Shown here: piece by piece, positions 2,913-6,097 of the stretch
How positions within the stretch are numbered: the first letter of the stretch is position 1
How the letters are laid out: each line of letters opens with the position of its first letter
The notes under the pieces: generated by a model
Told to the model about the DNA's origin: nothing
What the model saw: only the letters and a program-made list of their open reading frames with translations
Databases searched by the model: none
From: an uncultured Prevotellaceae bacterium
GTDB lineage: Bacteria; Bacteroidota; Bacteroidia; Bacteroidales; Bacteroidaceae
Reading direction: 5' to 3'
Assembly (NCBI GenBank): GCA_900317305.1
Contig: ONGG01000040.1
Span: 3,031-53,806 of the forward strand
Length of the DNA: 50,776 nt
Program-made: the position numbers and the translations under genes

Positions 2913-4511
2913 ATGACAGGAAAGAGAATAGCATGGTTGTTGCCCCTTGTGGCACTGTTTTTATGCTGTGGCGGAGAGCCGACAGCGCAAGAACTGGTAG
3001 AGGTTGACTCGCTGTTGGCGGTAGAAAAGAACGACTCGGCCTATCAAATTATTGCGGCTTACGACCCTGCTTCGTTCGAGGACGAGACTGACCGTGCGTA
3101 TTACAATCTGCTGATGACCCATGCTGCCGTCGTGTCGTACCACTGGCCCGCGTCAGACTCGCTGATTAACGAGGCCATCCGCTATTACAAACGGACGGGT
3201 GACAAGGAGCGGCTGACCGACAGTTATTACTATCTGGCCAATCAGTACATGCACCAAGAGGATTGGCAAAAGTCGATAGAGACACTGAAACTGGCTGAGG
3301 AACAGGTGGAGCAGACTGGGAGCGACTGGCTGAAATGTAAGGTGTACGATGCCTTGGCGCTCGTGAACGAGCGGACGGCTAACTATCAATTGACGCTGGA
3401 CTACGAAAAGAGAGCCCTCGGCTATGCCCTGCGGGTAGGCAGAAGGAGTACGATAGGCTATGCATATTCGGAAATAGCCCAGGCATTTGCCTTTATGGGA
3501 CAGGCGGACAGTGCCGCTTACTATACAGACATGCAGATTCCCTATCTGGATGACCTCATCAAATCGGATGGCGAGAACTTTAGCCCCATCTTCCTATCGA
3601 ACATCGGCTACAACTATATGTCCGTGGGGCGTTATGAGGAAGCCGAGAATTATCTGGCACAGTCGCTGAAGATAAGGGAGACCGCTGCCGCTTACGAGGA
3701 CTTGGCATGGATTTATCATAAGAAAGGTGACGAGGAGTATGCTAATTTGCTCAGATTGAAAGCGAACGCGATAAACGACAACTGGCCGAAGCATAAAATC
3801 CTGTATCATCTGCTGCAGTACGACATTGAGCATCAGAACCTGGAGGGAGCCGAGCAGAAACTGTATCGCATGATGGCCATTTCTGACAGCTTACACAAGG
3901 CCCAGATGGATCGTACAATACTGGAGTATCAACGACAGTTTGACGAGCAGATAGCGCAGGAGGCTCACCACCAGCAACTGCTAAAGGTGATTATATTGGC
4001 GGGCGGTCTGCTTTTTGTCATTCTGCTATTGGTTTTATATATCCGTTATCGCCATGCAAAAGAACGGTTGGTGCTCACCGAACAGCAGATGCTCATTAGT
4101 GGCTATGTGAATGAGATTGCCCAACTGAAGAACCAGCAAGCCGATGACGATACGACGCAACAGATAGAGGAACTGAACAGCAGGATTCGGGAACTGGTGG
4201 AACAGGAATCGCCGCGACTGGTTAAGGGCAAGATGCTCTACGACGAAATAAAGCGAGACGGCACGACATCGGGCTGGTCGAATGATGACTACAAATGCTT
4301 TATCGACTACTACAAGGCTTTCGACTTCGCCGCCTTCTGTCGCATCCAAAAGAGATACTCACCCAAGACCGCCCACAACACATTCTTTCTCATCCTCTAC
4401 GAGATGGGCCTGGAAGATAAGGATGTCCGCCGCATCATGGGTGTCACTCAAGAGGCCATCCGCTCAACAAGGTACAGGATTCAGCAGGGAGATAAGCGGA
4501 AAAAGAAATAA
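2913..4511 (+). CDS. TPR / transmembrane / helix-turn-helix signalling lipoprotein
   Basis: 532 residues from the ATG at 2913. The N-terminus is a lipoprotein-like signal (LFLCCGG around residues 16-22). Residues about 60-340 form tetratricopeptide-like helical repeats, including ADSAAYYTDM and GRYEEAENYLAQSL, expected to sit outside the cytoplasmic membrane. A single membrane helix (VIILAGGLLFVILLLVLYI) follows, then a coiled coil, and a C-terminal LuxR/sigma-region-4-like helix-turn-helix (DKDVRRIMGVTQEAIRSTRYR). Proteins of this plan are common in Bacteroidales and are thought to couple periplasmic sensing to transcription. The target genes are not known; the divergent receptor gene is one candidate. 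An alternative is a TPR protein with a non-DNA-binding tail, but the HTH pattern is convincing. Confidence 0.8.
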   Translation: MTGKRIAWLLPLVALFLCCGGEPTAQELVEVDSLLAVEKNDSAYQIIAAYDPASFEDETDRAYYNLLMTHAAVVSYHWPASDSLINEAIRYYKRTGDKERLTDSYYYLANQYMHQEDWQKSIETLKLAEEQVEQTGSDWLKCKVYDALALVNERTANYQLTLDYEKRALGYALRVGRRSTIGYAYSEIAQAFAFMGQADSAAYYTDMQIPYLDDLIKSDGENFSPIFLSNIGYNYMSVGRYEEAENYLAQSLKIRETAAAYEDLAWIYHKKGDEEYANLLRLKANAINDNWPKHKILYHLLQYDIEHQNLEGAEQKLYRMMAISDSLHKAQMDRTILEYQRQFDEQIAQEAHHQQLLKVIILAGGLLFVILLLVLYIRYRHAKERLVLTEQQMLISGYVNEIAQLKNQQADDDTTQQIEELNSRIRELVEQESPRLVKGKMLYDEIKRDGTTSGWSNDDYKCFIDYYKAFDFAAFCRIQKRYSPKTAHNTFFLILYEMGLEDKDVRRIMGVTQEAIRSTRYRIQQGDKRKKK

Positions 4512-4607: not shown

Positions 4608-4616
4608 TACTTTTGC
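4608..4616 (+). promoter_or_regulatory. -7 promoter box of the retron unit
   Basis: TACTTTTGC matches TAnnTTTGC in full. Transcription should begin at about 4622, roughly 20 bases before the candidate a1 arm of the non-coding RNA. No clear TTTG box is visible at -33; a T-rich stretch is there instead. Confidence 0.6.
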
Positions 4617-4621
4617 AACCT

Positions 4622-4940
4622 CGCTCTTTGAAATGATAAATAGTCACGCTATGCTTAGTTCATGAAGTGAATTTAGTTTCACAACCGAATAGGTCTTTGG
4701 CCCATTAGGACTGCCTTAATTGCTTACGTTCGAGACTACGCTCTTGTTCATAGCACTTCGGCAGAAAAGTTGATTTGACAGAAACGACGAGTTATTTATT
4801 GTCATTAATCGATTTGTTGTGTCTTTTTGCTCTAAGTTTAAAGGACACGGAATAAGGGGGATGGAACAGGAACAGCGCATATAGGACATTGCGTGACGTT
4901 GCAAATAGGACACGGGCCACGTCGCCTTAATTTAAACTTA
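4622..4940 (+). ncRNA. Candidate retron msr-msd non-coding RNA
   Basis: This 437-base gap (4512-4948) has no convincing ORF but has structure, and it lies upstream of a retron-like reverse transcriptase, where msr-msd RNA is expected. Hand folding gives: a candidate a1 arm at 4643-4653 pairing 10 of 11 bases with a2 at 4887-4897; directly after a1, the bases TTAG at 4655-4658, the usual setting of the branching guanosine; a hairpin at 4667-4682 (GTGAA/TTCAC, 6-base loop); a second at 4693-4711 (GTCTT/AGGAC with one wobble); and a pairing of CTGCC (4711-4715) with GGCAG (4760-4764). A further 10-bp inverted repeat encloses 4833-4940. Ends are estimates: the 5' end comes from the promoter box, the 3' end from the outer repeat. 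I did not find one long clean msd hairpin, so the msd limits are open. Confidence 0.6.
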
Positions 4941-4948
4941 AAATTTAA

Positions 4949-5209
4949 ATGTGTACTATTATGCGCAGATTTATTTTTTATCATGAGGAGCAGAGACAAG
5001 GTTTCTGGTTCCTTGGCTCAAAGAGCCGTTGTTCCATCTCCAGCAGGAGAGTCGTTCTTTTAAATAATGGTAAAAAGAGAGGTCGAAAAAGACTCGGTCC
5101 AATCTTTAAAGGTTTGTGGAAAATGTTTCGTAAGTGTGTTGAGTTTATACTCGCCCTTGGTTTCATCGCAAAACTTGCATTGTTAATTTTGAGTTGGCTT
5201 GGCTGGTAA
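4949..5209 (+). CDS. Small basic single-membrane-span protein, putative retron partner
   Basis: 86 residues, lying between the candidate non-coding RNA and the reverse transcriptase gene, 18 bases before the latter. The N-terminal half is aromatic and basic (MRRFIFYHEEQ), the middle is strongly positive (GKKRGRKRLG), and residues about 64-83 form one hydrophobic helix (FILALGFIAKLALLILSW) that ends near the C-terminus, a layout expected for an inner-membrane protein. I do not recognise the family. Position suggests it is the effector or toxin arm of the retron; retrons with membrane-protein effectors are known (Ec48 type), but those have two membrane helices. The start at 4949 follows an AT-rich leader; internal ATGs at 4961 and at the residue before FRKCVEF could give shorter forms. 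It could be an untranslated part of the RNA, but the clear topology argues otherwise. Confidence 0.6.
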   Translation: MCTIMRRFIFYHEEQRQGFWFLGSKSRCSISSRRVVLLNNGKKRGRKRLGPIFKGLWKMFRKCVEFILALGFIAKLALLILSWLGW

Positions 5210-5227
5210 CATCCCTACTTATTTTTT

Positions 5228-6097
5228 ATGCTCATACAGAAAAACGATATATTATGTTCTTACGTTCTGCACAAGAGTGTAGAACGTGTGAATTATATTG
5301 CTAAGCATACAAAAGAGTTTTATACGGAGTTTCATCGCTATAAAACAGACAAATTTGGAAACAAAAGGCGAAACAAGCCGCAGTATAAAGAGACATATGG
5401 AGAATTTTGGACAAGGGTTATAAACCCGCCAAAAGATGAACTGAAGGAAATTCAAAAGCGAATCAACAAATACTTGGTTGATAATATTCGGATGCCAGAG
5501 TATGCATTTGGAGGTATCAAATCTCGTGATAATATCCGAAATGCACGTTTCCACAAAGGGCAGAAATATGTATTTCAGACTGATCTGAAAGATTTCTTTC
5601 CATTTATTACAAATAAAAAAGTGTATGAAATGTTTGTGAGAGTAGGGTTTTCGCGTGACGTTTCATCCATGCTAACAAAGCTGACAACCTATAATGGACA
5701 TCTCCCTCAAGGGGCGCCCACATCAACAACAATTGCCAATTTGGTGTTTATACCAACAGGTGTGGCTTTACAAACCATAGCAAAACGTGAAGGACTGAGA
5801 TTCACAACATTTGTGGATGACGTGACCATGTCATCGCAGACAGATTTTAAGCACGTAGTGCCGAAAATAATAGAAACAATAACTTCTTATGGATTTAAGA
5901 TTTCCCAAGGGAAGACGACATACAAATCTGGAATTACAGATGTGACAGGCGTAAGAATGTTGAATAACTCTTTGACAGTTACTGATAAATTTGTTGTTGC
6001 CATCGAAAAGGAGGTTGATAAATCTTCACCGAGGGCAAAAGGATTACTAAATTATAAAGAGCGAATAAGGATACTGTCAAAAACAAAGAACAAGTAA
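5228..6097 (+). CDS. Retron-type reverse transcriptase
   Basis: 289 residues. Visible retron and RT landmarks in order: NAxxH as NARFH at 105-109; RT motif 3 with the first catalytic aspartate in TDLKDFF at 118-124; LPQGAPTS at 159-166 (motif 4); the catalytic FVDD box at 195-198 in place of the commoner YADD; and the retron hallmark VTG at 239-241. The tail (SPRAKGLLNY, basic end) fits the retron region that binds its own RNA. NAxxH plus VTG distinguishes retrons from group II intron and DGR enzymes, and no maturase domain or template repeat is seen. The enzyme should make msDNA from the upstream RNA. It is short for the family but appears complete. The gene is AT-rich compared with flanking genes, which suggests horizontal transfer. 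Anti-phage function is inferred from other retrons. Confidence 0.85.
   Translation: MLIQKNDILCSYVLHKSVERVNYIAKHTKEFYTEFHRYKTDKFGNKRRNKPQYKETYGEFWTRVINPPKDELKEIQKRINKYLVDNIRMPEYAFGGIKSRDNIRNARFHKGQKYVFQTDLKDFFPFITNKKVYEMFVRVGFSRDVSSMLTKLTTYNGHLPQGAPTSTTIANLVFIPTGVALQTIAKREGLRFTTFVDDVTMSSQTDFKHVVPKIIETITSYGFKISQGKTTYKSGITDVTGVRMLNNSLTVTDKFVVAIEKEVDKSSPRAKGLLNYKERIRILSKTKNK

Follow-up and report, generated by a model that had tools for sequence, protein, structure and literature searches.

A clade VI retron variant without an HTH gene, with an upstream RNA complementary to the coding sequence of its small protein

As reportedly defined by Mestre et al. in 2020, a type VI retron consists of a reverse transcriptase (RT), an HTH protein and a small protein. 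Eco1/Ec86 is a type II retron with an a1/a2 layout and with other effector and partner proteins, and in canonical retrons such as Eco1 the synthesis of msDNA starts beside a2, just 5' of this repeat. In type I toxin-antitoxin systems, the mRNA for a small membrane peptide is silenced by a separately transcribed antisense RNA. In the DRT2 system a new gene is made from the RNA; its defence RT copies an adjacent ncRNA with a bearing on a toxic product (PMC12039810). The literature searched, which was covered by titles and the opening of abstracts and included few subscription papers, yielded no account of how retrons with tiny partner proteins work, and nothing on the mechanism of type VI retrons or on a pairing between a retron RNA and a small-protein mRNA. 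The mechanism of type VI is not described in the available passages of PMC12548924, PMC13405049, PMC9252829, PMC8987985 and PMC8934634, and PMC8541194 and PMC13249269 name the type once each.

The locus studied here shares with the type VI retrons the RT clade, the gene order apart from the HTH gene, an a1/a2 RNA upstream and a small protein (SP) with a hydrophobic C-terminal half, but it has no HTH gene and its SP is strongly basic and barely matches the SP_VI profile. A pairing between the RNA and the SP mRNA is common to the window (the whole 50,776-nt stretch of DNA that was analysed) and to most of the type VI loci fetched. With Eco1/Ec86 it shares the a1/a2 layout, and Ec86 is the closest solved relative of its RT. 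The likeness to type I toxin-antitoxin systems is one of form, in that the window encodes a small, basic and hydrophobic peptide with a hydrophobic helix, the mRNA of which is complementary to a candidate regulatory RNA; it differs from them in that this RNA is the ncRNA of a retron, lies upstream on the same strand and comes together with an RT. As in DRT2, an RT stands beside an ncRNA that may bear on a putative toxic product, whereas the peptide gene of the window is an ordinary DNA-encoded one.

The retron unit and its placement

The unit covers about 1.5 kb, all on the + strand. As in an earlier reading made from the sequence only, a promoter is followed by the upstream RNA, the small ORF and, last, the retron-type RT. 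Its features are as follows.

4608..4615, + strand: putative -7 promoter element TACTTTTG, read directly
4623..4897, + strand: retron ncRNA (E0, a1, msr, msd, E1, a2), from a1:a2 covariation, with inferred ends
4643..4653, + strand: a1 repeat, 11 nt, 91% complementary to a2
4819..4848, + strand: msd hairpin GTGTC...GACAC, read directly
4887..4897, + strand: a2 repeat, from an inverted-repeat search and best-helix comparison
4961..5209, + strand: SP, a putative small and basic membrane protein with a length of 82 aa if begun at the conserved ATG and of 86 aa if begun at 4949, from the start shared by relatives and hydrophobicity
5228..6097, + strand: retron reverse transcriptase, 289 aa, clade VI by profile score, from profile scores, alignment and a PDB match

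Promoters of the Bacteroidota have the -7 consensus TAnnTTTG, and the element at 4608-4615 fits it. Between it and the small ORF lie about 330 nt without an evident gene, described in the sequence-only reading as a structured non-coding region. Covarying repeats indicate that the RNA is real, whereas its folding energy alone is ordinary (z-score -0.75). The RNA is bounded by a1/a2 inverted repeats, as is characteristic of retrons; cognate a1:a2 helices in 17 loci average -10.26, compared to -5.17 for permuted partners (0/50,000), with a compensated change in L012 and different a1/a2 sequences in distant loci. In a comparison of relatives, the msd hairpin was kept in L012 and L015 and was not seen in L014 or L016. 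Rfam models at the gathering threshold identified only a tRNA in the window. A 10-nt match between 4833-4842 and 4931-4940, considered as a possible masking of the leader, was dropped; its second arm is missing in L012, L013, L015 and L016.

The RT carries NAxxH at residues 105-109 and VTG at residues 239-241, as had been read from the sequence, and in an alignment of 17 sequences including the window N105, H109, D197, D198 and T240 were invariant and A106 and G241 nearly so. The PADLOC model RT_VI gave 236.2 bits (1e-70) and the next model 170.3 bits, and the assignment to clade VI is by profile scores alone. The best solved relatives in the PDB are retron RTs, with Ec86 first (1.1e-44), and together with the a1/a2 repeats these matches support the suspected retron identity. 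The earlier reading had been unable to place the locus in a known retron type. We find that it can be placed beside type VI, since RT_VI is the best model and the nearest relatives fetched from outside its own clade, L003 and L026 (64% and 60% RT identity), keep both an SP and an HTH gene, the latter between the SP and the RT.

For a broader comparison we used two sets of loci: set A, with 29 loci of the Bacteroidota type (L079 and L081 from IMG/VR), and set B, with 14 mostly proteobacterial loci from Proteobacteria, Scytonema and Staphylococcus. In 20 of the 29 A loci an HTH-like motif was found in an SP-RT gap of 310-374 nt, giving the order RNA - SP - HTH - RT. No such motif was present in any frame of the 18-nt gap of the window (5209-5228), nor in the short gaps (18-66 nt) of the HTH-less loci, which are nine of the 29 with the window included (the window, L012, L014, L015, L016, L056, L062, L063 and L067). 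Because the HTH gene is absent, we call the window a variant of type VI (clade VI) without this gene, and not a plain member. Its SP matches the SP_VI profile over residues 22-44 only (E 0.0067, 14.8 bits), compared to E-values of 2.9e-14 for L003, 1.3e-14 for L026 and 5.1e-16 for L005.

The 86-residue ORF of the earlier reading is present at 4949-5209, but the ATG at 4961 is the start that L012, L014, L015 and L016 have in common with the window, and the protein is therefore probably 82 aa long. It has a net charge of +15 and a hydrophobic peak at residues 66-82 (mean KD 2.48). In 28/29 A SPs and in all 14 B SPs, the 17-residue segment of highest hydrophobicity has its centre in the C-terminal half. 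The threshold used for a membrane span, a mean KD of 1.6 over such a segment, is reached by only 11/29 A and 6/14 B SPs, and many of these proteins may thus be amphipathic rather than membrane-spanning; those of the window clade are among the most hydrophobic (2.14-2.48). Within set A, the nine HTH-less SPs, five of which represent one clade, have net charges of +1 to +15 (+7 or more in eight), compared to -6 to +5 in the twenty with an HTH gene. In set B the SPs are basic too, at +5 to +14, although an HTH gene accompanies them where this was looked at, so the link between a basic SP and the absence of HTH holds within A only.

The closest assemblies found outside the genome of the window, L010 and L011, are named uncultured Prevotellaceae; L010 has the entire neighbourhood in common with the window and the contig of L011 begins within the retron RNA. 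Other relatives carry the unit at other sites, and their DNA similarity to the window covers 4568-6091 in L014, 4598-6066 in L015 and 4625-6067 in L016, and then ends. From the stop of the similarity at the unit edges it follows that the promoter, the RNA, the small ORF and the RT move as one package, which contains no further gene that might serve as effector, in line with the earlier view of the small membrane protein as the sole candidate. RNA, ORF and RT are kept together in L010 and L012-L016, the conservation on which that reading depended. Overall, its interpretation is partly supported.

The retron unit is situated behind the 3' end of related TPR regulator genes in the window (4377-4511), L012, L013 and L014, and this is perhaps a preferred place of insertion; outside the unit, L014 matches the window over 77 nt at the end of the TPR gene that lies upstream. 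A second RT, with 34% identity, lies within an 819-aa frame in the genome of the window (G000, contig C17, 73530-74162, L002).

Predicted pairing of the upstream RNA with the small-protein gene

The sequence-only reading missed that the RNA is complementary to the coding sequence of the small ORF that follows it. The elements involved are as follows.

4623..4631, + strand: E0, GCTCTTTGA, pairing partner of E2a and predicted to form the 5' end of the RNA, from a flush-helix scan
4857..4877, + strand: E1 (E1a 4857-4869, E1b 4869-4877), antisense to the SP coding sequence, from helix scans
5018..5026, + strand: E2a, TCAAAGAGC, in the SP coding sequence, pairs with E0, from a flush-helix scan
5027..5041, + strand: E2b, CGTTGTTCCATCTCC, the Arg-Cys-Ser-Ile-Ser codons of SP, pairs with E1, from helix scans

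An inverted-repeat search matched 4857-4868 with 5030-5041 inside the small ORF, and in L017, a relative from Rikenella, the corresponding position is occupied by another sequence, which can pair with the small ORF of L017 itself. The pairing was scored as the best ungapped RNA helix, with G-U allowed. In a scan of 250 nt upstream against 150 nt of coding sequence, the best helix in 23/29 A loci joins positions -104..-63 upstream to nt 53-93 of the coding sequence. Over 24 nonredundant A loci, cognate E1:E2 helices average -13.03 kcal/mol and permuted partners -7.75 (sd 0.56; 0/20,000), and the cognate partner is the single best in 14/24 rows. A helix at -10 or below is found in 20 of the 24 (all except L052, L056, L069 and L071), as against 1-4/24 for seven other pairs of windows. 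After synonymous recoding of the SP stretch in 24 A loci the mean was -7.28, compared to -12.99 observed (0/200 sets), and the pairing is therefore not explained by conservation of the protein. In most of the loci compared the complementarity persists, though the sequences themselves differ.

We also considered the possibility that the RCS codons are kept for the sake of the protein and match E1 by accident. Arg and Cys/Ser residues do recur in A-type SPs, and some unrelated ORFs reach -10. A control covered 34 other RT loci, of which 11 had no candidate ORF, and its 39 ORFs averaged -7.99, with eight at -10 or below. It contained clade VI loci, as eight of its viral-contig RTs (partial sequences) score best with RT_VI; without L080-L097, two of 14 ORFs, counted by eye and not typed individually, are at -10 or below. 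Such an accident is contradicted by both the permutation and the recoding tests. Furthermore, the residues encoded by E2b vary (RCS, RSS, RCP, RDL, RDT, RTT, QCS, HCS and others), and for most of RDL, RDT, RTT, QCS and HCS, E1 changes along with the residues. The idea is refuted for the whole set and we give it almost no credence, although single weak loci may be due to chance.

The counts leave out near-identical or duplicate loci of set A (L010, L011, L013, L018, L023, L054, L065, L068, L070 and others) and L004, in which the SP frame looks interrupted in that assembly. They also leave out weaker RT_VI matches with longer RTs (most of L027-L047 and L073-L078) and loci for which no SP was accepted or which were not taken further (L060, L080, L082, L092, L095, L096 and L098). 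L012, L014, L015, L016 and L053 are absent from the comparison of 24.

In the window clade E1 is doubled, as GATGGAACA and GGAACAGCG, each of which matches an overlapping part of E2b; by eye, E1 in L017 and L004 looks doubled too.

A second pairing adjoins the first. In the A loci the E0 motif, G(U/C)UCUUUGA, is the complement of the part of SP that directly adjoins E2b, and this exact motif is used by the best E2b-flush helix in 20/28 loci. With E2b boundaries set by hand and L071 left out, the flush score for E0:E2a over 28 loci is 16.9, compared to a mean of 11.7 and a maximum of 15.3 (at shift -1) for shifted boundaries. E0 is plausibly the transcript start, because TAnnTTTG is located 4-9 nt before the motif in 18/29 A loci. 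At the other end, the best a2 helix starts 4-13 nt after E1 in 16/19 loci (exceptions L015, L024 and L051), and since canonical retron synthesis starts beside a2, E1 would be the first stretch copied.

Since E2a pairs with E0 and E2b with E1, the two together could act as a splint for the 5' end of the RNA and the stretch that adjoins a2. In a plain cis fold of 4623-5120, E1:E2b reached a maximum pair probability of 1.000 and neither a1:a2 nor E0:E2a was formed. In two-strand folds of 18 loci, the dimer used E1:E2b in eight, E0:E2a in eight and neither in two, by the position classes of the script. The two were formed together in 0/18 of these plain folds, a method that cannot hold a pseudoknot. 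Because E1:E2b crosses both a1:a2 and E0:E2a, the full arrangement would take the form of a cis pseudoknot, or else of two RNA pieces paired in trans.

The splint geometry opens for the possibility that the pairing serves the RT, with the SP mRNA joining the 5' end of the RNA to the start of the template, the translation of SP or its arrest timing the synthesis of msDNA, and SP itself being secondary. It would account for E2 reaching both the presumed 5' end of the RNA and the sequence next to a2, and the crossing of a1:a2 by E1:E2b could gate priming. However, a mere splint needs no gene, and in set B, too, E2 is found inside the SPs, which are different ones. In addition, E2b is bounded by the first position of a codon in 21/21 tabulated A loci, where boundaries were set by hand and the table omits L071, L072r and L081, the helix of L072r starting from nt 53, off that frame. 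We consider this explanation unlikely.

According to another view, E1 and E2 are the half-sites of a DNA operator that co-evolve with an HTH regulator. The frequent HTH-like motif in the SP-RT gap of the A loci would be expected, and the HTH-less L056 has only a weak helix (-9.0). Yet most HTH-less loci keep the helix (-19.4 in the window, -14.8 in L062r, -15.6 in L063r and -15.7 in L067), which disfavours an operator, and on the E2 strand the partners of E0 and E1 meet without a gap, a joint for which operators have no need. G-U pairs make up 19/216 pairs in the strong helices, which is weak evidence against an operator as G-U was allowed in the scan. We regard the operator idea as very improbable.

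Over 10 pairs of loci, pN/pS was only moderate in SP (0.33-0.83), and 0.11-0.21 in RT. In all 10 pairs pS was lower in SP than in RT, which is consistent with a constraint at the RNA level on the synonymous sites.

Set B and loci from viral contigs

Set B has the layout of set A in a weaker form. No PADLOC SP model matched two B-type SPs (L061 and L101). The helix lies at -115..-55 upstream and at nt 19-37 of the coding sequence, and over 12 nonredundant B loci its mean is -10.68, compared to -8.02 for permuted partners (36/50,000), in windows that were narrowed after the helices had been looked at; a first permutation with wide windows on 10 loci gave a weak signal (607/20,000). After synonymous recoding of the 12 loci, 0/200 sets reached the observed mean. 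L107 and L110 were left out of the 12, and L111 (a near copy of L106), L112 and L113 were dropped before counting. Six B loci score between -7.1 and -8.1 (L059, L090, L091, L100, L104 and L105), and the helix is individually weak in the cyanobacterial L101 (7 bp) and the staphylococcal L105 and L110 (-7.2). Two Acinetobacter plasmids, L059 and L107, provide a compensated pair, UGCUGAU/AUCAGCA compared to UGCUGAAC/GUUCAGCA.

Seven clade VI loci from IMG/VR viral contigs gave 314/50,000 with the same window as in the 12-locus test and 52/50,000 with the window widened for L097; these were recognised as clade VI loci with an SP at a later stage, their helices were viewed beforehand, and for L090 an ATG further inside was taken as the start of SP. 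In the helix scan of these loci, a helix was found in L083, L085, L093, L094 and L097, and none in L090 or L091. With the widened window, the combined B set of 19 loci gave 0/50,000. L086, L087 and L089 were left out as near-identical or duplicate beside L085.

A candidate mechanism

The patterns of pairing suggest that the retron RNA probably controls SP. The best explanation, to which we attach slightly more belief than doubt, is that the window contains a clade VI retron variant without HTH, in which the ncRNA would act as an antisense RNA and hold the transcript of a toxin-like SP, and reverse transcription would compete for the same RNA. E1, just 5' of a2, would pair with the SP codons of E2b while the predicted 5' end, E0, pairs with the flush E2a. 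This pairing, as a pseudoknot in cis with the a1:a2 stem or in trans with the processed ncRNA, would keep SP poorly translated. SP itself is a putative toxin-like, membrane-active peptide, the release of which might stop the cell, as in abortive infection. The least certain steps are the last ones: with E1 as the first template to be copied, reverse transcription and the SP mRNA would compete for E1, and copying together with RNase H might erase the antisense brake. The route of repression is not obvious, since E2 lies off the start codon and inside the coding sequence, at a depth of about 52-93 nt in A and 18-37 nt in B. msDNA made from E1 would have the sense sequence of SP and could therefore not silence the SP mRNA at the E2 site.

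Known retrons sequester the effector in a complex with RT, ncRNA and RT-DNA (PMC12548924). By analogy, the complex of RT and msDNA could hold the SP protein inactive and free it upon phage attack, with the RNA pairing as fine tuning. Two flush and conserved pairings would represent much selection for fine tuning, and we find this explanation rather unlikely. Returning to the preferred explanation of an antisense RNA in competition with reverse transcription, a more general hypothesis, which we put forward tentatively, is that clade VI retrons are toxin switches gated by reverse transcription. The first template stretch would be the antisense lock, and the synthesis of msDNA would destroy this lock and hence serve as the trigger and not as the antitoxin. 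Such a rule might extend from the Bacteroidota to the Proteobacteria, and perhaps to the Cyanobacteria and Staphylococcus, with different peptides.

A covarying pairing between RNA and mRNA that includes the expected start of reverse transcription points to a concrete mechanism, in which a retron RNA would control its effector at the level of the mRNA. The pairing would also account for K/E-N-R-C-S, a short motif of the small proteins that is otherwise puzzling, and offers a route to recognise retron RNAs and small proteins that are missed by profile searches. It may even reach into type V, as the RT of L081 matches RT_V best (256 bits, compared to 232 for RT_VI), yet this locus has the SP-HTH-RT order and a 15-bp E1:E2 helix.

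In two alphaproteobacterial loci, L099 (2583-3542) and L108 (2294-3259), a gene with a TIR domain directly follows the RT.
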